Assembly (NCBI RefSeq): GCF_002831665.1
Contig: NZ_CP025118.1
Span: 1,302,001-1,366,000, forward strand
Source of the DNA: Lacinutrix sp. Bg11-31
Lineage (GTDB): Bacteria; Bacteroidota; Bacteroidia; Flavobacteriales; Flavobacteriaceae
DNA: 64,000 bases
Direction: 5' to 3'
Part shown: positions 38,814 through 47,528 of the stretch, in pieces
Layout: the number at the start of each line of letters is the position of its first letter
Numbering within the stretch: the first letter of the stretch is position 1
The notes under the pieces: model-generated
What the model was told of the DNA's origin: nothing
Databases searched by the model: none
The model's input: only the letters and a program-made list of their open reading frames with translations
Program-made: the position numbers and the translations under genes

Positions 38814-40397
38814 TTAAAAAGGAGTATCAATGTTTAACTGTTTGCAAAAGTCTGCAATGGTTGCATCTGTTTTTGTAATGTCTTTATCTAATGCTTTTAA
38901 GTATTTTGCTACTGTTGTTAAGTCTATGGGTTCTTCTTCTTCAAAAGCATCTACGTAACGTGGTGTGTTTAGGTTGTAGTCGTTTTCTTTAACTTCGGCT
39001 AAAGTGGCATTATAACTGTATTTGTCTTTTGTTTCACGGTTTCTGTAGGTGTTAACAATGTTTTCAATATCGTTAAACGCATTATTTTCTCTTAATACAT
39101 TTTGGTTTTTTACTTTTTCAAAATGTTGGCTTGCGTCTATAAATAAAATGTTTTCTGGTTGCTCGCGCTTCTTTTTAAGCACCAAAATACAAGTTGGTAT
39201 GCTTGTACCATAAAATATATTTGCTGGCAAACCTATTACTGCGTCTAGGTAGTTTTTATCTTCTATTAAAAACTTACGTATGTGTCCTTCGGCTGCACCT
39301 CTAAACAACACACCATGTGGTAATACACAAGCCATTGTACCATTAGCGTCTAATTGGTGAACCATGTGTTGCACAAATGCAAAATCGGCTTTCGATTTTG
39401 GTGCTAGTTTACCGTATGCCGAAAATCGATCGTCGCTCATAAACAATGGGCTTGCGCTCCAGTTTGCCGAAAATGGCGGATTGGCAACTATGGCTTCAAA
39501 ACGTTTGTCTATATGGTTAGGGCTTGGGTTTACTAAGGTGTCTTCGTTATAAATATCGAAACGTTTGTAGTGTATGTCGTGCATAATCATATTCATTCTG
39601 CACAAGTTATACGTGGTTGGGTTGCTTTCTTGCCCATAAAACTCGCCTACATCTCCTACTTCTTTGGCAACACGTAATAATAACGAACCCGAACCGCAAG
39701 TTGGATCGTACACGCTTTTTAATTTGGTTTTACCTGTAGTTACTAATTGCGCTAGTATTTTAGAGACTTGTTGTGGTGTGTAAAATTCGTCTGCTTTTTT
39801 TCCTGCGCCACTTGCAAATTGCCCAATTAAATACTCGTAAGCATCTCCTAAAATATCACTATCTGTGTTTTCTAAATCGAAATCGATACCTTCTAAATGG
39901 GTTAATACTTTTACTATGAGTTCGTTTTTGGTGTCTTCGGTTTTACCTAGTTTACTACTTGTTAAATCTAAGTCTTCAAATAAGTTACCAAAATCGTCTT
40001 CGCTTTCGCTTCCCATGGTACTTTGCTCTATGTTGGTTAGCACGTTTGCTAAATCGCCCAAAATAAAGTTGTTTTTGTTACCCGAATTACCACGTTTTGC
40101 CAACTCGCTAAACAGCTCGCTTGGTTTAAGGAAATAACCTAGTTTGTCTAAAGCTTCAAATTTAATGGCTTCTAGTAATGCTTCGGCTTCTGGATGTGCT
40201 TCTACAGTATCGTAATCTAAACCGTCTGGTTTTAAAATTACGTTGGCGTAGAGTTCCATTTTTCGACTTAAATATTTGTAAAAAATAAAGCCTAGTATAT
40301 AATCTCTAAAATCGTCTGCATCCATATTACCACGAAGGGCGTTGGTAATATTCCACAGCGTTTATTTTAGTATTTGTTGTTTTTGTTCTTCGGACAT
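38814..40397 (-). pseudogene. hsdM: Type I restriction-modification methylase subunit HsdM, early in-frame stop, orphan
   Basis: From ATG 40397 the frame reads MSEEQKQQILK, a TAA (40362-40364), then TLWNITNALRGNMDADDFRD and 490 more intact residues to 38814. The family normally has a sense codon, often Gln, at that place. Translation could restart at ATG 40325, giving 503 residues that lack the first helix of the N-terminal domain. N6-adenine methylase motifs are intact: FYTPQQVSKIL, DPTCGSGSLL (207-216) and NPPF (282-285), counted from 40325. No hsdS or hsdR gene is adjacent; downstream are family A repeats, and upstream is unrelated sequence. Without HsdS the enzyme cannot select DNA sites unless HsdS is encoded elsewhere. 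Confidence 0.85.
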
Positions 40398-40579
40398 TAA
40401 TAGGGTTAGTTTATGTATTGTACTTGTACCAAAAGCAAGTGTTAGTATTTGTTTTGGGTTAATTAATTAGGAAAAGTTAAATATAAGACCTTTTTAAAAA
40501 CAAGAGTTGTATTACATAATAAAAAACACGTGTTTAACTATTTATTTAATACCGTTAGTTTACTTCATTTTAAGGAACA

Positions 40580-40939
40580 CTAATCAGGCGCGCAATTTAA
40601 GTTTTCGTTATAAGGTTTAATATATTTCCAAAATGCTTTTCCTGCACTGTCTAAGTAGTTTAAAGAATAATTAAGTTTTGTACTTGAACTTACTTGATAG
40701 ATGTATTTATTACATGAATATGAATACTCCTTTTTAAAACAAACTATTGCAAAATAATACGTTTGGTACTCTATCTGTTTATTATAAAACGTTACTTTAG
40801 AAATGGCTTTACTATCATAATTAGTGTATGTTGTACCATAATTATCTAATGTTACAAAATCTATCATTTCTTGACAAGATTGTGCATTTATTTTAAACAT
40901 GCTAAGTACAAATAGTAAGCTAAGTAAAAATTTATTCAT
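40580..40939 (-). CDS. Secreted hypothetical protein
   Basis: 119 residues. Signal peptide MNKFLLSLLFVLSMFKINAQ, then a mature part of ~100 residues with five Cys (SCQEM, IVCF, YSCNK, LNCAPD) and many Tyr. I do not recognise a family. Two disulfides in the periplasm are possible. It is the third gene after the 42219 lipoprotein on the same strand, downstream of a candidate regulated promoter. A short stem (AAAGACTT/AAGTCTTT, about 40964-40990) lies before it, probably ending the preceding transcript. Confidence 0.6.
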   Translation of the reverse strand: MNKFLLSLLFVLSMFKINAQSCQEMIDFVTLDNYGTTYTNYDSKAISKVTFYNKQIEYQTYYFAIVCFKKEYSYSCNKYIYQVSSSTKLNYSLNYLDSAGKAFWKYIKPYNENLNCAPD

Positions 40940-41029
40940 CTTATTTCTTTTTTTTAATTAATAAAGACTTCAAAATTAAAGTCTTTAAAAATAACCTTTA
41001 AGGTTTATTAATGCAGTTGTTAGTGTCTT

Positions 41030-41749
41030 TTAATCTTCATCGAAAAAGAAGTCGTGAATTTTTATAATGTCTCCTCTACCAATTTGCACAAGGTCTTTAG
41101 TTTCTTTTAAGAATATACCTAAAGAACGTTCGTTGTACAATAGTTTCATATCTGCCGAGTAATCTGTTACTACGTACATATCGCCTTCTAATTTAAAAAA
41201 CGGAATGATTAATTTACTCTTTACCTTAACACCTTTGTTTACCACTTTGCCTTCTTTTAATGTAGATACAATAGAACTTTTATTTGTTTCACCTGAAGCT
41301 ACTTTTACGTAAGCTACCATCATATTTATCCATTCTGTATCGTCTATTAAATACCATCTTACTTTTTCGAAATCTATACCATATTCGCTAATCCAGCCAC
41401 GACTTGTAAAACCAAATAACACTTGTTTTTTGCCATCTAATTTTGGTTTATCTCCAGCTGTAAACTCCTGTAGTTTAAATGAAATTACAGAAGTAGACGA
41501 CATGTCTTTCACCTTTTTACCATCAAAATCTAATGTTTTTAAAGAGAAACTAGTAAGTGCTGGCTGGTTGGCTAAAACCCATTGTGTTGCTGTGAGTTCT
41601 GCTTGTTCTTTCATTTGTTCTACAGCTGCTATTCCTGCTCCAATGGCTAAAAGTCCACCAATTGCAGCTGCAGCTCCTTCGTTTTGGGCTGTTGCTTGTT
41701 TAGGCATTAAATAAGCTAGAACGAAAAGTATTAAAATTAGTTTCTTCAT
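41030..41749 (-). CDS. Secreted hypothetical protein with glycine-rich start
   Basis: 239 residues. Signal peptide MKKLILILFVLAYLMPKQATAQ, followed by an Ala/Gly stretch (EGAAAAIGGLLAIGAGIAAV) that could be a short membrane-associated helix, then ~190 residues of mixed strand and helix (WLANQPALTSFSLKTLDF type, then VRWYLIDDTEWINMMVAYV). No recognised domain. Its position between a terminator and the next secreted protein gene, in a run of exported proteins under a shared motif, suggests an envelope function. Confidence 0.6.
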   Translation of the reverse strand: MKKLILILFVLAYLMPKQATAQNEGAAAAIGGLLAIGAGIAAVEQMKEQAELTATQWVLANQPALTSFSLKTLDFDGKKVKDMSSTSVISFKLQEFTAGDKPKLDGKKQVLFGFTSRGWISEYGIDFEKVRWYLIDDTEWINMMVAYVKVASGETNKSSIVSTLKEGKVVNKGVKVKSKLIIPFFKLEGDMYVVTDYSADMKLLYNERSLGIFLKETKDLVQIGRGDIIKIHDFFFDED

Positions 41750-41792
41750 GTTTAAATATTTAAATTTTAATAGTAATTAATTTTTAAGGTTA

Positions 41793-41823
41793 AAAAAGCC
41801 TCACTGGTTAAGCAAGGCTTTTA
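41793..41823 (-). terminator. Terminator hairpin after the DUF6567-like lipoprotein
   Basis: AAAAAGCCT and AGGCTTTT pair around CACTGGTTAAGCA. A near copy with the same loop core (ACTGGTTAA) lies at 42386-42421, upstream of the lipoprotein gene. Confidence 0.7.
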
Positions 41824-41856
41824 TGTTGGGTAACAAAACTAATTTACAGCAATACC

Positions 41857-42219
41857 TTACTCTGTAAACTCAACTATTTGCCCAGAGACTATAACTTTGT
41901 ATTTATTTACAAATAAAAACCCTGATGTTTTAACCTCTACTATTTCGTTTACTACTGTTCTAGCAGCACCTTCCATACCTGCAGATTTCAACATTTTTGC
42001 TTTAGCTTCTGCTATTAATCCGTTTTTGGCCAATCCTCCAATACCAAAAATGTAAGTGGCTTGTGCTTCGCCTTTTACCAATTTTACAACTTTAAAATTC
42101 TTTTTAGTTAGTACTACTTCTGTAGTATTTTGGTTGTAGTTTTTTGGTAATCCATAATGAGTTGCACAACTTGTTAAAAACAAAGACATTACAACAAATA
42201 GAAAAGAAATTTTTTTCAT
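41857..42219 (-). CDS. Lipoprotein, DUF6567-like
   Basis: 120 residues. Lipobox FLTSCATHYG makes Cys 18 the lipidated residue. The mature part runs VVLTKKNFKVVKLVKGEAQA and TYIFGIGGLAKNGLIAEAKA, and ends KYKVIVSGQIVEF, the pattern I associate with DUF6567 lipoproteins of Bacteroidota; their function is unknown. It has a candidate promoter 72 bp upstream with the TTGAGGATTTCCGTA motif (see 42291-42336) and its own terminator. It is the first gene of the secreted-protein run. Confidence 0.75.
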   Translation of the reverse strand: MKKISFLFVVMSLFLTSCATHYGLPKNYNQNTTEVVLTKKNFKVVKLVKGEAQATYIFGIGGLAKNGLIAEAKAKMLKSAGMEGAARTVVNEIVEVKTSGFLFVNKYKVIVSGQIVEFTE

Positions 42220-42290
42220 AAATAAATATTTAAATTTTAAAACCTACTTCTGTTTTGAGTCTGTTTTTGGCTAGTTCCGACTTTAAGTTG

Positions 42291-42336
42291 CGAACATAAA
42301 CTCATTAAATATTATATGTTTACGGAAATCCTCAAT
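42291..42336 (-). promoter_or_regulatory. Candidate regulated promoter P1: 16-bp motif, 22-bp gap, -7 box
   Basis: On the minus strand ATTGAGGATTTCCGTA (complement of 42321-42336), then exactly 22 bp, then TATGTTCG (complement of 42291-42298), a TAnnTTTG-type box. The lipoprotein ATG lies 72 bp downstream. The same layout recurs at 42493-42538 and 45630-45675. The motif sits where an activator would contact the -33 region. Confidence 0.6.
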
Positions 42337-42385
42337 AGACTACTATTTTTTTTTACAACACAATCGCTAAACTTTTAATTATAAA

Positions 42386-42421
42386 AAATAACAAAGCCTT
42401 ACTGGTTAATGCAAGGCCTTG
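42386..42421 (-). terminator. Terminator-like hairpin without a gene before it
   Basis: CAAAGCCTT and AAGGCCTTG pair around ACTGGTTAATGC, and on the minus strand the stem is followed by GTTATTTTTTATA. It resembles the lipoprotein terminator at 41793-41823. Between it and promoter P2 there is only ~70 bp without a coding frame. Confidence 0.55.
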
Positions 42422-42492
42422 AAATCAACTTAAAAAAAACTGACTACTAGCTTATATTGTGCGATTAATCAAAACACAACAACTTTAGAATG

Positions 42493-42538
42493 CGAACTTA
42501 AATACATTTAAAATTCTTTTTTTACGGATATCCTCAAT
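42493..42538 (-). promoter_or_regulatory. Candidate regulated promoter P2: 16-bp motif, 22-bp gap, -7 box
   Basis: Minus strand ATTGAGGATATCCGTA (complement of 42523-42538), 22 bp, then TAAGTTCG (complement of 42493-42500). Its motif core GGATATCC is a perfect palindrome. It points at the hairpin 42386-42421 and not at any gene, so it may make a ~100-nt RNA. The rest of the 42220-42697 gap shows no coding sequence; a weak motif-like AACGGAAACCTC near 42640 lacks a -7 box. Confidence 0.55.
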
Positions 42539-42697
42539 CAGGTGAAATAAATATTAAAAAAGATTTTTTTAAACCTATTACTATTGGTATAAAGCCATAG
42601 AAATATTTTAGGTTCTCGTTTTATAGCAATAACAACTTAAACGGAAACCTCTATGCAGAATCTATTGCCTTTTATTATTAAATAGAAATGAGCGTTT

Positions 42698-43363
42698 TTA
42701 TATTAAACCTAAGTCCTTCATTATAGAAACTAAATGCGTTGCATTATCTGCTTTAAAATGAATGCGTAATTTGGTTAAGTGTTTCTCTATAGAGCTTACA
42801 CTACTTGGTGTAATATTATTGGCTACTAAATAGGCACTTATGCCTTTTTGGTCTTTACCATGAGAGAGTTGTTTTGCCAATGTAATATCGTAATCGTCTA
42901 TATCTAGATTAGATTTTTTACTTAGTGCTTGTGCTACTTGAGGCGACACAAACAATTGGTTTAGGTATACTGCAGTTATGGCTTTTTCTATTTCTATTAA
43001 ACCACGTCTGCCTTTACATACATAGGCATTAACTTGGTCTGTTTTAATTAAAGTGCGTACGCGTTGCAACCTATCTTCTACAGAGTAAACAATAACTTTA
43101 AGTTCTGGATAATTGTTATTAATAAATTTTGCTAATGCATCTCCAGAGGTTAGTTTTTGCGCTCTATGGTCTATTACAAAGGAGAGATCTGTTATTACCA
43201 AATCGAAAGGTACATTGTCTAAAACTGCACGTTTAATTTTTAGTACTGCATCATCACAATACTGCACTTGCTCTATATTATTAATACCTAAAGCATTTAA
43301 TACTGTGGTTACACCTTGATTAATACTTCCTAGATCGTCTGCAATTAAAACTTTTTTAAACAT
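42698..43363 (-). CDS. NarL/FixJ-type response regulator
   Basis: 221 residues. Receiver domain: acidic pocket D9/D10 (IADD), phosphoacceptor D59 (LVITDLSF), with VIVYSVEDR and the VCKGRRG segment carrying the conserved Lys. The C-terminal ~70 residues form a LuxR-like HTH, somewhat divergent (LAKQLSHGKDQKGISAYLVA, then SSVSSIEKHLTKLRIHF). The kinase gene ends 3 bp upstream, so they are a co-transcribed pair. The three identical promoter layouts around this locus are the best candidates for its binding sites. Confidence 0.9.
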   Translation of the reverse strand: MFKKVLIADDLGSINQGVTTVLNALGINNIEQVQYCDDAVLKIKRAVLDNVPFDLVITDLSFVIDHRAQKLTSGDALAKFINNNYPELKVIVYSVEDRLQRVRTLIKTDQVNAYVCKGRRGLIEIEKAITAVYLNQLFVSPQVAQALSKKSNLDIDDYDITLAKQLSHGKDQKGISAYLVANNITPSSVSSIEKHLTKLRIHFKADNATHLVSIMKDLGLI

Positions 43364-43366
43364 ACC

Positions 43367-45250
43367 TTAAATTCTTATCGTGGCTTTAAAGCCTTTATTA
43401 TTTTCAGATTCAAAAGTAAATGTTCCATTTATAGATTTAATGCGGCTTTCCACATTGGCAAGTCCATTTCCTTTTTTTATTGGTAAACCTTTGCCATTAT
43501 CTTTATAATCTATAGAGATTTTTCGACCTTGTTTACGAAACTTTAGTACTACTATTGTGGCTTCGCTATGTTTTTTCATATTTACCATTAATTCTTGAAG
43601 TACTCTGTAAATTATTTTTTTCTTAGTGTTAGAAATAGCATCCCAAGTAATTTTAGAGAGGTCTTTTGTAATAATACTTACAGTTTCGCTTTTGTAATTT
43701 AGTAATAAGTCTGAAAGAATAGTATCGAAAGTATCGTTAAGTACAATAGCACTATTTTGGTTAGAAATGTCTCGTGTTCTATTGTAAATGCTTTCCATAT
43801 CGTCGAGTACTTCTTCATTTAAATCATTACCACTTTGTAGCTTTGTCATAACATGATAAATATCGTTAGCGACTTCATCGTGTACTGTTTTAGAAATACG
43901 TGTTTCGGTATTGTAAATTTCTTGACGTTTTTGTTTTCTGTGTTTGGCTTTTAAGATGAAGTATAAAAAAACGGAAACAGATAGTATTATAATTGAAAGC
44001 AAGAGGTATATTAACTTAAAACTCTTTTGGTTTTTACTTTCTAATGCTGCTTCTTTTAATGCTCTTTCATTTTTATAATAGTTATATTTTGTTGATGCAA
44101 ATTTATTACTGTTTAATTGTTTAAGCTTAAACACTGTACTTACCAAACTTTTATATTCTTTAACTTTACTATTGTCTCCCAAATCTATTAAAATACCCAA
44201 GGCCTCAACTTGATCGCTTTCCGAGTTTAATTGTAAAGACAGATTGTAGGCTTTGTTAGTATAAGACAAAGCTTCTTTAGTATCTTTTCTATCGCTATAA
44301 TATTCTGATAAATGCATATAACTTGAATACATACCCAGTTTATAATCTTCTTGCACTCTAAGTGCTAAAGCGTCTTTAATATTAAGTAATGCATCTGGTA
44401 AATTTAATTTAGATTTTACTAATCCTAGGTTACTTAAATATCTCGATTTTTGTTTCTCGTCTTTTGTATTTAAACTGCTTTGATATGCATAATCGAATTC
44501 TTTTAATGCAAGTTCGTATTTCTCTTGTGCTTTATAAATATTTCCTTTGTTGTTTCTCGCAATACTTTTATGCTCAAGATTAGTAGTAATCTCTATTACT
44601 TTATTATAACTTTCGAGTCCTTTCTCGTAATTATCTAACTCTCCATAAATAAGACCTAAATGATTATATAGGCCAATTTCTGCTTCAATAATTTTAGCAT
44701 TCTTATTCTTAATATTGTCTATTAAACTTAAAGCTTCAACTGCAGAACTTTGACTTTCGTAAGGCACATCAAATTTTTTCTCAATACTAGCAATCCATCT
44801 TAAATTTGTAATTACACTTAACGTATCGCCTTTAACCAAGCTAAAATTCTTATGAGCTTTGTAATATTTAAAGGCTAACAATAAACTGTCATTAAGCCTG
44901 TGATAGTCTCCTAATTTTCTATTAGCTTTTAATATATATTTAGAATTACTTAACTTAATACTCTTTGCTAAAAGTAAATTTGCATTTACTATTGCACTAT
45001 CATAGTGCTTTAAATTACCTAAAAGATAACTTTTTCGGTTATAGCCTTTTAATTCATAGTCGTAATTGTTTTTAGATTTCGCTAAACGTATAACTTTACC
45101 AACATACCCTAATTTTTCTTCAATTGTATGCTTACTATCCTTACTTAAAGCATAATAATATGGTAAACTGTCTTGCTTTTGTTGGCAATACACTAGTGTA
45201 AGATTTAATAGCGCTAACAAAAAAAAGAGGAATGTCTTTTTTAATTTCAT
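43367..45250 (-). CDS. TPR-containing sensor histidine kinase
   Basis: 627 residues. Signal peptide (1-22), then ~370 residues of periplasmic TPR-like helices (for example YNHLGLIYGELDNYEKGLES, IARNNKGNIYKAQEKYELAL), one membrane helix at ~405-428, and a cytoplasmic HisKA_3-type kinase. The phosphoacceptor is in SKTVHDEVANDIYHVM and the ATP site in LQELMVNMKKHSEA and DNGKGLPIKKGNGLANVESR. This TPR-kinase design with a NarL-type partner is typical of flavobacteria. It follows a 53-residue lipoprotein gene and overlaps nothing. Confidence 0.92.
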   Translation of the reverse strand: MKLKKTFLFFLLALLNLTLVYCQQKQDSLPYYYALSKDSKHTIEEKLGYVGKVIRLAKSKNNYDYELKGYNRKSYLLGNLKHYDSAIVNANLLLAKSIKLSNSKYILKANRKLGDYHRLNDSLLLAFKYYKAHKNFSLVKGDTLSVITNLRWIASIEKKFDVPYESQSSAVEALSLIDNIKNKNAKIIEAEIGLYNHLGLIYGELDNYEKGLESYNKVIEITTNLEHKSIARNNKGNIYKAQEKYELALKEFDYAYQSSLNTKDEKQKSRYLSNLGLVKSKLNLPDALLNIKDALALRVQEDYKLGMYSSYMHLSEYYSDRKDTKEALSYTNKAYNLSLQLNSESDQVEALGILIDLGDNSKVKEYKSLVSTVFKLKQLNSNKFASTKYNYYKNERALKEAALESKNQKSFKLIYLLLSIIILSVSVFLYFILKAKHRKQKRQEIYNTETRISKTVHDEVANDIYHVMTKLQSGNDLNEEVLDDMESIYNRTRDISNQNSAIVLNDTFDTILSDLLLNYKSETVSIITKDLSKITWDAISNTKKKIIYRVLQELMVNMKKHSEATIVVLKFRKQGRKISIDYKDNGKGLPIKKGNGLANVESRIKSINGTFTFESENNKGFKATIRI

Positions 45251-45291
45251 TCCTCTAATTTATAAACTATTTTTAGATATACTTCTAAAAA

Positions 45292-45453
45292 TTAATCATC
45301 ATCGTCTTGTGCTTCTTCAGGTAAAATTTCTCCATCATCATCTCCTATTGTTCCTTGCTCTGTTAAAGTGCTATCTATTAAACTTGTTGGTGTACAAGAT
45401 GTAAAATTTGCGCTCATAAAAAGAGCCGTAAATAAAAATAAAATAATTCTCAT
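45292..45453 (-). CDS. Small acidic lipoprotein
   Basis: 53 residues: MRIILFLFTALFMSANFTSC is a lipoprotein-type signal with the Cys at 20, then a short acidic tail (TEQGTIGDDD, then GEILPEEAQDDDD). I have seen such tiny lipoproteins with DGEILPE-type tails in other flavobacteria, but no function is known. It lies 41 bp before the kinase gene on the same strand and is probably the first gene of the kinase-regulator transcript. It may be a ligand or inhibitor of the periplasmic TPR sensor; that is inference only. Confidence 0.65.
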   Translation of the reverse strand: MRIILFLFTALFMSANFTSCTPTSLIDSTLTEQGTIGDDDGEILPEEAQDDDD

Positions 45454-45629
45454 AAGTTTCTGTTTTTAAAATTTGAACAAAGAATTGCCTGTCCGAGATT
45501 TTCTCAGATTACTTGTGTTTACACAGCAACACATAAAAAAAGTGCCTTATTCCTTTGCTTTTTTTTCGAAAAGAAAAATCCTTATGCAGTAGTATTTAGC
45601 TACTTTCCAATTGGGCTATTTTTTACCAC

Positions 45630-45675
45630 AATGAGGATTTCCGTAAGAATCTATTTCATACAATAATTATGTTAG
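45630..45675 (+). promoter_or_regulatory. Candidate regulated promoter P3: 16-bp motif, 22-bp gap, -7 box
   Basis: AATGAGGATTTCCGTA (45630-45645), exactly 22 bp, then TATGTTAG (45668-45675). It differs from P1 by one base in the motif and one in the box. It faces the hypothetical gene at 45796, whose ATG is 120 bp downstream. The rest of the 45454-45795 gap contains a small inverted repeat (GAGATTTTCTC, near 45493) and AT-rich sequence. Confidence 0.6.
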
Positions 45676-45795
45676 CAATGCATAATTAAAATGGACTCCT
45701 TAAACAAAGGTAGATTGAGAGAAAAGCCTTTTTAGAATGGAAAACCGAACATTCCGAAAAAGCCATAAGATTCCTTGAAAAACCGAAAAAGACCG

Positions 45796-46710
45796 ATGAT
45801 GAAAACGAATAAAACCTATGAAATTGATGTAAAAAAGAAATACATTAATGATGAAAAACAAAACGTACTAAGAGCTAACCTTTACAAATTAACACGTGCT
45901 AACATTAGAAATGTTTGCTTAAATCTTGTAGATGAAAAACTATCTATAGAAGATGAAAAATCTATGCGCTACTTTTTTGGATTAAAAGAAAGCGACGATT
46001 TAAGACATGAAATAAAAAACTATGATATTGATGGCTTTAGACCTATTTGCAAATTTTTAAAAGGAGAAACAGAATCTATAAAACAGTATTATGCTATAGA
46101 GTTAATTGCTATACTTATTAACTTTAAACCTAGACCTTACAGAAACTATAGAATTAATGCCTTTGAAAAAAATGCAGAAAATGAAAATGGTTTTATTAAT
46201 ACTGATTTAAATAGCATTCCATTAAAAAAATTTAACTTAGAAGAAAACACTCTTAATGAAAATGAAGCAAAGAATAAGAACGATAAAATAGATAAAAACT
46301 TAGTATCGCAAAAAGACAGCAACTTTACTATAAAAAACAAAGTGTATTTAATTACCATTTTATTAATATTATCGACGCTGTTTTTAGTACATATAAACAG
46401 AACACGATGGATGATCTGGCAGGAAAATCAATATATAGAAGTCGGTTTTAATGTAGAAAAGTATAATCTAAATCAATTAAAAGTCTATAAAAAAGAACGC
46501 ATTCTAAGTTTTAAACAAATTGAAAGTCCAAATTGTAAAACAGCATATTTTAAAGAAAATGGTAGCGAAAATGTATGGTATGGAAAAAACACTAAAAGAA
46601 CGTTAGAGTATTTTACAGCTTTAGGTTTACATCCTGAAACTGGAAAAACATTAAAAAAAATTACAAAATATATTATAACCACTCATATTTGCGAAGATTA
46701 TAAGTATTAG
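45796..46710 (+). CDS. Single-span membrane protein, function unknown
   Basis: 304 residues from ATG 45796 (45799 is also possible; a TTG at 45775 would add seven). Cytosolic N-terminal part of ~175 residues: RANLYKLTRANIRNVCLNLV, then FFGLKESDDLRHEIKNYDID and FKPRPYRNYR. It looks like a small helical module, perhaps HTH- or death-domain-like. One membrane helix follows (~190-206, LITILLILSTLFLVHI), then a ~95-residue extracytoplasmic C-terminus with two Cys. I recall related proteins in flavobacteria but no function. The P3 promoter layout ties it to the neighbouring two-component system. Confidence 0.65.
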   Translation: MMKTNKTYEIDVKKKYINDEKQNVLRANLYKLTRANIRNVCLNLVDEKLSIEDEKSMRYFFGLKESDDLRHEIKNYDIDGFRPICKFLKGETESIKQYYAIELIAILINFKPRPYRNYRINAFEKNAENENGFINTDLNSIPLKKFNLEENTLNENEAKNKNDKIDKNLVSQKDSNFTIKNKVYLITILLILSTLFLVHINRTRWMIWQENQYIEVGFNVEKYNLNQLKVYKKERILSFKQIESPNCKTAYFKENGSENVWYGKNTKRTLEYFTALGLHPETGKTLKKITKYIITTHICEDYKY

Positions 46711-46851
46711 TTATTACTAGTTTTAATAGAAAAACATATCCTTTTTTTGAGAATTTAGCATTTTTTAACCGATGCTATCTATTAAATTAACTTCTATAAA
46801 TAAACAGGACATAAAATTGCTGTTTTTACTTTTTAAACAAAAATAACTCAC

Positions 46852-47466
46852 ATGAAAATAATAGGTGTTGGTAAAAACTACGTTAATGATAAAGCCTAAG
46901 TTAGTACTATAAAAACTGGTGCTCAGTTAATTTTTTTAAAAGCTGAAAGCGCTCTAGTTACTAATAATGCAGATATTTCTTTTCCATCAATTACTAACGA
47001 ATTAGCTTACGAGGTTGAACTCGTTGCTAAAATTGGAACGCAAGGTAAAGACGTCGCTTTAGAAGATGCTAATAGTTATATTTCTAAAATTACTGTTGGT
47101 ATCGATTTTACAGCTAAAGATGTATTAGCAGCAAGTAGAGCAAATAAAGGACCTTGGGCTTTGGCTAAAGGTTTTGATGGTGCTTCTCCTGCTTCTAACT
47201 TTAAACCTGCTAGTGGTTTTACAGATTTAAATGCTATTAATTTTGATTTGAAAATTAACAACGAACAAAAACAAGTAGAACATACAGATTTCATGATTTA
47301 CTCTTTTGCCAAAATCATTACTTACGTTTCTAAGTTTATGACTTTAGAGCCTGGAGACCTTATTTTTACTGGTGCTCCTGCTAAAGGTGTTGGTCTAACC
47401 GAAAAAGGAAATCATCACCAAGCGTCTATAGAAGGTGAACTTTTATTAGATTTTAAATTAGTATAA
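46852..47466 (+). pseudogene. Broken fumarylacetoacetate-hydrolase (FAH) family gene
   Basis: From ATG 46852: MKIIGVGKNYVNDKA, a TAA at 46897-46899, then an uninterrupted frame to 47466 with FAH-family features: FPSITNELAYEVELVAKIG, VGIDFTAKDV, GPWALAKGFDG and the C-terminal FMTLEPGDLIFTGAPAKGVG. Besides the stop, the usual Pro in the ...FLKPxSAL segment is Ala and the region after VGL is degenerate. An intact gene would give 204 residues. A GTG or ATG inside could start a shorter product, but it would lack the N-terminal lid and the first metal ligand region. I regard it as inactive. Confidence 0.8.
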
Positions 47467-47528
47467 GCACCAATGTTTTTTATTGATTACATTTACAATG
47501 TGACGCGATGAAAAACTCAAGCCACCAC

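Follow-up and report, generated by a model that had tools for sequence, protein, structure and literature searches.

A candidate operator linking a TPR kinase/NarL-type regulator pair to a variable defence repertoire in Flavobacteriaceae

The 64-kb stretch of Lacinutrix sp. Bg11-31 DNA analyzed here (the window; positions 1302001-1366000 of a one-contig genome of 3.665 Mb) encodes a tetratricopeptide repeat (TPR) sensor histidine kinase and a NarL/RcsB-like response regulator, around which three copies of a short sequence each stand at a fixed distance from a −7 promoter box. Our analysis indicates that these sites are probably operators of the response regulator (42698-43363), and that the pair would form a two-component system directly coordinating a variable set of defence genes and regulating itself through a site within the kinase gene. 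A large part of the immune arsenal of Flavobacteria may in this way depend on a single sensor.

Operator layout in the window, the genome and relatives

Exact copies of the 14-mer TGAGGAWWTCCGTA are located at 42321-42334 (− strand), 42523-42536 (− strand) and 45632-45645 (+ strand), and the window contains no others. At these three sites, named P1, P2 and P3, the distance from CCGTA to the −7 box is exactly 22 bp, the boxes being TATGTTCG, TAAGTTCG and TATGTTAG, respectively. The three oriented 16-mers with a box 22 bp away, on which the original prediction of a small, local envelope regulon was built, are therefore borne out. Its statement that the window holds no further match is correct for exact copies but overlooks a degenerate fourth site, P4, which lies inside the kinase gene with the same spacing as P1-P3 and 92 bp from the ATG of the regulator gene. 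When up to three mismatches are allowed, the 14-mer matches 20 times in the window versus 12.8 times (standard deviation 3.5) in shuffled sequences, 4 of 100 shuffles reaching 20; as this count is only mildly high, the case for the layout rests on the exact copies and their spacing. The four sites are organized as follows.

P1, 42291-42335, − strand: operator TTGAGGATTTCCGTAA (42320-42335), 22 bp from CCGTA to the −7 box TATGTTCG (42291-42298)
P2, 42493-42537, − strand: operator TTGAGGATATCCGTAA (42522-42537), 22 bp, −7 box TAAGTTCG (42493-42500)
P3, 45632-45675, + strand: operator TGAGGATTTCCGTAA (45632-45646), 22 bp, −7 box TATGTTAG (45668-45675)
P4, 43411-43455, − strand: degenerate operator ATGTGGAAAGCCGCAT (43440-43455), N21, −7 box TACTTTTG (43411-43418), within the kinase gene

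A search of the whole genome for operator and box at this spacing, which had been proposed together with the original prediction, returned 8 sites with the strict pattern TGAGGAWNNCCGTA-N22-TANNTT and 11 with the wider pattern TRMGGNNNNCCGTAA-N21-TANNTT. The reversed patterns, counted as controls in the same genomes here and below, gave 0 in both cases. The absence of further matches thus does not extend from the window to the genome. The bare 14-mer without the box (up to two mismatches) is not enriched genome-wide (49 matches versus 100 for the control), indicating that it is the box, at its fixed spacing, that carries the signal. One match, at G000 369576 (L001), was not counted as a promoter because an apparent terminator hairpin follows it.

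Among 60 genomes including this one, 20 of which have a regulator match at E ≤ 1e-20, the strict pattern was found in 3. This apparent failure of conservation was resolved by examination of the regulator loci, in which the left half of the operator is mostly TTACGG: TTGAGG is common in this genome and TTACGG in most relatives, and most regulator loci of relatives carry an adjoining palindrome TTACGG-N4-CCGTAA at the same 22-bp spacing. The spacing was assessed at loci fetched by protein similarity rather than by the box. Of 220 palindrome orientations (a palindrome being counted both ways where both qualify, with some in-gene sites included), 90 have TAnnTTT(G/A) 22 bp past CCGTA, while any other distance from 0 to 42 bp accounts for at most two cases. 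A second peak, of 10 cases, is located at 43 bp after CCGTA. In a logo of 156 sites, box positions left free by the search also show a preference (third T, 72%; G, 58%), and a separate −33 TTG box is absent. One palindrome is flanked by two divergent boxes, each 22 bp away, in six genomes (G320, G177, G373, G358, G251 and G191), as expected of a symmetric dimer.

The number of sites reaches 28 in one relative (G367), compared to 11 in this genome, which does not support the small regulon that had been proposed. In G367, a near-identical recurrent form (TGAGGATTCCCGTAATTAAACCATAAT...) heads small uncharacterised-looking genes (L283, L284, L288 and L294), and another form (...CTGTTGTAACTT) recurs in L286 and L287; these recurrent forms are possible cassette arrays.

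The response regulator as likely binder and the in-gene operator

We compared the distribution of the wider pattern with that of the regulator (one query, E ≤ 1e-20) in 299 genomes of the family with completeness of at least 90. Operator and box occur together in 127 genomes and the regulator in 130: both are present in 112, the regulator only in 18, sites only in 15 and neither in 154. Sites are thus detected in 112 of 130 regulator-positive but 15 of 169 regulator-negative genomes (Fisher p 6e-45), and they number 328 in the former (control 9) against 19 in the latter (control 17). Because these genomes are related, a comparison was also made within genera: 25 genera include genomes with and without the regulator, and sites are more numerous in the regulator-positive member in 19 of them, less numerous in 1 and equal in number in 5 (sign test p 4e-5). 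Of the 156 sites present in 20 genomes, at least 121 are separated from a regulator gene by more than 20 kb or are on another contig, contrary to the local regulon first envisaged. The two components and a small gene beside them are listed below.

42698-43363, − strand: NarL/RcsB-like response regulator of 221 amino acid residues, the proposed binder (profile searches, AlphaFold model, Foldseek)
43367-45250, − strand: sensor histidine kinase with an N-terminal hydrophobic segment, a TPR region, one transmembrane-like segment (414-432), H457 and a HATPase domain
45292-45453, − strand: gene for a 53-residue peptide, secreted and lipoprotein-like by eye, directly 5′ of the kinase gene; comparable peptide in 14 of 18 pairs

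A profile of 51 orthologs compared to PDB retrieved regulators of the NarL/FixJ family (RcsB, VraR and NarL; best E 2e-12). The AlphaFold (AF2) model (pLDDT 89.6, pTM 0.67) aligns with full-length RcsB with TM-scores of up to 0.70 by query and 0.78 by target, and its full-length Foldseek matches are spr1814, LiaR, RcsB, DesR and VraR. The acidic pocket, phospho-acceptor Asp and Lys of a receiver are present, D10, D59 and K117 being invariant and S94 98% conserved in the 51 sequences; Pfam Response_reg is matched at E 2.3e-5, below its gathering score. A LuxR-type four-helix helix-turn-helix is predicted at the C terminus from the model. The protein is not an RcsB orthologue, as it scores 29.4 bits with the NCBIfam equivalog versus a cut-off of 235. 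Mean column identity in the 51 sequences is higher in the recognition helix than in the receiver (0.77 versus 0.62), as expected if the orthologs read the same operator, and the palindromic organization of this operator is consistent with binding as a phosphorylated dimer.

The kinase matches HATPase_c above the Pfam cut-off. Its motifs HDE at 457, NMKKH at 557 and DNGKG at 584 were assigned by motif reading only, with no Pfam match to a dimerisation domain, and its sensor part is probably located in the periplasm. A peptide gene precedes the kinase gene in 14 of 18 kinase-regulator pairs (50-62 residues, with an acidic or proline-rich tail, ending 26-53 bp before the kinase); these peptides were judged secreted and lipoprotein-like by eye, and the pairs came from 20 loci, a script finding no pair in L364 and L371.

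An operator within the kinase gene was sought through the G2-box peptide of the kinase in 76 regulator loci, which are the best-scoring matches rather than a random sample and of which two, L108 and L183, share contig coordinates and look like one genome counted twice. The peptide was found in 62 loci, and in all 62 a TAnnTT box lies at the exact operator spacing. The operator itself is matched in 59 of these kinases (the exceptions are L049, L051 and L054). The regulator gene starts 81-204 bp away. Codon choice at the site rules out a coding coincidence: the Arg codon is CGT in 59 and CGC in 3 of the 62 loci (background 0.14 and 0.09), and at codon two, where the residue varies between T, V, A and M, the third base is G in 61 of 62 (ACG 24, GTG 19, GCG 16, ATG 2 and ACA 1; background 0.14 for ACG, 0.21 for GTG and 0.12 for GCG). 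In 11 of the remaining 14 loci, a site with at most one mismatch and with the exact box precedes the regulator by 83-400 bp; according to translations read by eye, 8 of these sites fall within the reading frame of the kinase, where the peptide is altered. Altogether, an operator and box just before the regulator, mostly within the kinase gene, are present in 70 of 76 loci; 3 more have a degenerate operator with a box, and none was found before the regulator in L108, L122 and L183 (3 of 76). We read the in-gene operator as self-regulation imposed on the coding sequence.

The NarL-type regulator at 42698, already named as the binder in the original prediction, is therefore the likely reader of the operators, a proposal well supported by the co-occurrence in 299 genomes, the within-genus contrasts, the site before the regulator in 70 of 76 loci and the NarL/RcsB-like fold. 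Several observations weigh against it. The regulator does not match Pfam GerE. The pattern has no match in 18 of 130 regulator-positive genomes and is matched in 15 of 169 regulator-negative ones, the 19 sites of the latter being near the control count of 17; regulator status itself depends on one query and one threshold. Many of the 328 sites adjoin the regulator, so not all of them speak for action in trans. Finally, of the 39 genomes behind named site matches, 30 have a regulator-like match at E ≤ 1e-5, which is weak (~5e-8) in Lutibacter citreus and a Flagellimonas. The 9 others comprise 7 that are not Flavobacteriaceae by title and 2 that are flavobacterial, a metagenome-assembled genome (MAG) and a Psychroflexus. 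Four flavobacterial-titled genomes thus carry a site and lack a strong regulator match, which argues against a strict site-regulator rule.

Genes downstream of the operators

To characterize the genes behind distant sites, we used 100 stretches of DNA from 20 genomes, which hold 121 such sites. A codirectional gene lies within 700 bp of 113 of these, and it starts at least 62 bp from the motif in 111 of 113, as a promoter would require. Fifty of the 113 were drawn at random, and the longer of the first two genes was scanned with PADLOC, in which a match means resemblance to defence models, known here from sequence alone. Controls were 30 random genes, each the longest frame of one of 30 stretches, from 40 random stretches in 9 of the same 20 genomes. 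At E ≤ 1e-20, 19 of 50 site genes and 0 of 30 random genes were matched (Fisher p 2.9e-5); at E ≤ 1e-5, the corresponding values are 21 of 50 and 3 of 30 (Fisher p 0.0025). The 19 matches correspond to type I methyltransferase (4), type I restriction (2), Cas9 (2), PDC-S60 (2) and PD-Lambda-1 (2), and to one each of PDC-S06, ZorA, QatA, SspC, UvrD/GajB-like, HerA and PDC-M49A. Outside this sample, reading of the sequences revealed a third Cas9-like start (L277), more hsdM/hsdR-like genes, a DndC/DndD-like pair (L264) and a QatC-like gene (L300). In this genome, the 8 other sites precede hsdM, hsdR, cas9, a PDC-S06 ATPase gene, an operon containing an Hsp70 gene, a small gene and two unassigned operons; at the small gene, an ABC-3C CTD6 protein gene starts 840 bp from the operator.

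The largest recognizable downstream class is thus anti-phage defence, and not the envelope functions first proposed. Secreted and lipoprotein-like genes do recur among the targets as members of the regulon, without being its theme. Two points temper this assignment: 29 of the 50 sampled genes have no PADLOC match at 1e-5, several being secreted-looking, transposase-like or unknown, and the control genes are neither promoter-proximal nor length-matched. As judged from these resemblances, defence is the leading theme of the regulon and not its whole content.

Recurrence was also noted among the site-headed genes. In six Chryseobacterium genomes (L070, L072, L074, L078, L081 and L090), the operator heads a conserved XRE-like regulator gene, which in most of them is followed by differing, often defence-like genes; these loci are a possible defence hotspot. 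A family (MELIQNNPYRIAGILSN...) recurs behind sites in L221, L256 and L075 and is a candidate uncharacterised conflict system; in L221, an Hsp70 gene lies two genes further along.

The genes behind P1 and P3 in the window are the following.

41857-42219, − strand: DUF6567 lipoprotein-like gene, first behind P1; a homolog with its own site adjoins a site-headed hsdM in L289
41030-41749, − strand: secreted-looking protein; homologs (by eye) behind sites in L234, L364, L374 and L378
40580-40939, − strand: secreted-looking protein, a homolog of which (by eye) is preceded by a site and followed by an hsdR-like gene in L253
38814-40325, − strand: type I restriction hsdM frame at the end of the P1 run (TIGR00497, E 6e-126)
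45796-46710, + strand: gene for a membrane protein, headed by P3; its family occurs in 86 of 299 genomes, and 82 of these also have the regulator

P1 precedes the genes at 41857, 41030 and 40580, and possibly also the hsdM frame at 38814. Homologs of these genes adjoin restriction genes elsewhere, by reading of the sequences, with DUF6567 before the site-headed hsdM of L289 and the 40580 homolog before the hsdR-like gene of L253; the P1 run of the window likewise ends in an hsdM frame. By eye, this frame is without the N-terminal start present in the second hsdM copy of this genome (L225), which bears an operator of its own, the differing upstream DNA of the two copies suggesting a recombination joint. 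The layout of P3 recurs in front of homologous genes in L060, L375 and L376. On the same strand, a fumarylacetoacetate hydrolase-like frame (46853-47466) is broken by an early stop near 46897 and is possibly a pseudogene. Among the matches listed, the DNA 3′ of the regulator in relatives contains several cassettes, each with its own operator, that include homologs of the P1 genes, TerB-like genes and SNase genes (Pfam), and others. Operators extending into a terminator-like hairpin with a T run represent 12 of 37 sites beside the regulator versus 8 of 119 distant ones.

P2, as was predicted, drives no gene. The element that then follows it is:

42392-42421, − strand: terminator-like hairpin 3′ of P2 (hairpin scan), with arms matching the operator-terminator of relative L369

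P2 could yield an RNA of about 100 nt ending at this hairpin (42421-42392). No Rfam family, small RNAs of the Rsm/Csr type included, was matched at gathering score within 40000-47500 of the window. The hairpin and the operator-terminator of L369 have similar arms and different loops, as if operator and terminator had come apart here, so that P2 may either be what is left of a cassette or serve as the source of a short RNA. A similar hairpin, also with a TTAACCA loop, was spotted by eye at ~41796-41822, after the DUF6567 gene; it is absent from the list produced by the hairpin scan.

Proposed mechanism, alternatives and known systems

We propose that the TPR sensor kinase, probably with the small secreted-looking peptide, would detect an envelope or danger signal and phosphorylate the regulator. 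A regulator dimer would then bind the palindrome, centred near −41, in replacement of the usual −33 element, and recruit RNA polymerase at the TAnnTTTG −7 box exactly 22 bp on. In view of what is known of Bacteroidota promoters, a centre near −41 would correspond to the position of a class II activator. It would act on defence operons (Cas9, type I restriction and others) whose set changes and is presumably acquired horizontally, and on small cassettes, located next to the regulator gene, that encode secreted-looking proteins. The regulator would also control its own gene through the operator in the 3′ end of the kinase coding sequence. A broader scenario is conceivable but somewhat improbable: the system would be an immune coordinator across Flavobacteria, in which the TPR sensor, located in the periplasm, takes a lipopeptide made by the cell itself as a sign of danger or envelope attack and the regulator turns on every defence operon bearing TTACGG-N4-CCGTAA. 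The operator would then act as a passport placing newly acquired islands under host control, with the operator of the regulator itself hard-wired in the kinase gene and some regulator-side operators doubling as terminators that insulate a growing cassette array.

The same operators and binder could instead serve repression, defence genes being held off until kinase signalling stops. Defence genes are costly, which would favour such control. In Streptococcus agalactiae, CovR is reported to repress a distal cas promoter (PMC12216829). Against repression, the operator takes the place of the −33 element with a spacing that does not vary, and a separate −33 TTG is missing from the logo of 156 sites, as expected of an activator-dependent promoter; we consider repression unlikely.

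It is far less probable that the DNA is bound by a different product of the locus, for example the membrane protein encoded after P3, and that the regulator merely travels along. The P3 family is indeed conserved with the regulator, which is present in 82 of the 86 genomes having the family. Nevertheless, 38 of 48 regulator-positive genomes without the family still have sites, and only 1 of the 4 genomes having the family without the regulator has a site, a single one; this co-occurrence rejects the P3-family protein as the binder. A small, local envelope-protein regulon is just as improbable. P1 and P3 do head secreted-looking, lipoprotein-like and membrane genes, and similar genes are found among targets elsewhere, but the genome-wide counts with the box reject both local chance and a small local regulon, and others of the 11 sites head hsdM, hsdR, cas9, a PDC-S06 ATPase gene and an operon with an Hsp70 gene. 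The motif could also be a strong promoter of general use that spreads with laterally moving DNA and answers to no specific regulator, a reading that can practically be discounted: a Paludibacter MAG without a regulator match has a site before a gene (restriction-like by reading) that begins almost identically in Flavobacterium gillisiae, yet regulator-negative genomes are at background (19 sites versus 17 for the control in 169 genomes), and equal site numbers in such genomes were looked for and not seen (19 versus 328).

Direct coordination of defence by the NarL/RcsB-like regulator would bear on the open question of how bacteria coordinate many acquired defence systems, for which a candidate with a defined operator now exists in Bacteroidota. 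A defined operator makes members of the regulon readable from sequence and turns unknown genes behind operators into candidate defence systems. The in-gene operator, if true, would mean that a coding sequence has been constrained by a regulatory site in many genera, which is unusual. In the open-access PubMed Central (PMC) literature, which covers few subscription papers, no title or abstract start among the matches listed concerns this regulator, this operator or a flavobacterial defence regulon.

Two-component control of defence is already known from Gac/Rsm, PpoS/PpoR and CovR-Cas9. RcsB is among the closest solved full-length folds and is the closest NCBIfam model, but the regulator falls far below the RcsB cut-off and its partner is a TPR kinase, not the Rcs phosphorelay. 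Gac/Rsm acts post-transcriptionally, whereas here defence operons have putative DNA operators of their own for a NarL/RcsB-like regulator, in another phylum and with another kinase architecture. According to the available excerpts, Gac/Rsm of Pseudomonas coordinates antibacterial and antiphage defence, with a regulon that includes phage defence systems in each of the four species examined, and thereby resembles the present system in combining one two-component system, a species-variable defence repertoire and a danger-sensing logic (PMC11888443). PpoS/PpoR of Marinomonas mediterranea, which controls CRISPR-Cas and phage sensitivity, similarly places a histidine kinase and a response regulator over defence, but in the available text it resembles BarA/UvrY with CsrA and small RNAs, and two CRISPR-Cas systems are described with no common operator reported before many unrelated systems (PMC8523701). 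CovR shares the direct action of a response regulator at a cas promoter; in the portion available, it differs in being a repressor and virulence regulator, the defence system described being CRISPR-Cas9 (PMC12216829). What appears to be new is the family to which the regulator belongs, the phylum, the presence of direct operators in front of many defence systems unrelated to each other, and the in-gene operator, in line with the speculation in the accessible part of the Gac/Rsm study that such pathways await discovery in other phyla (PMC11888443).

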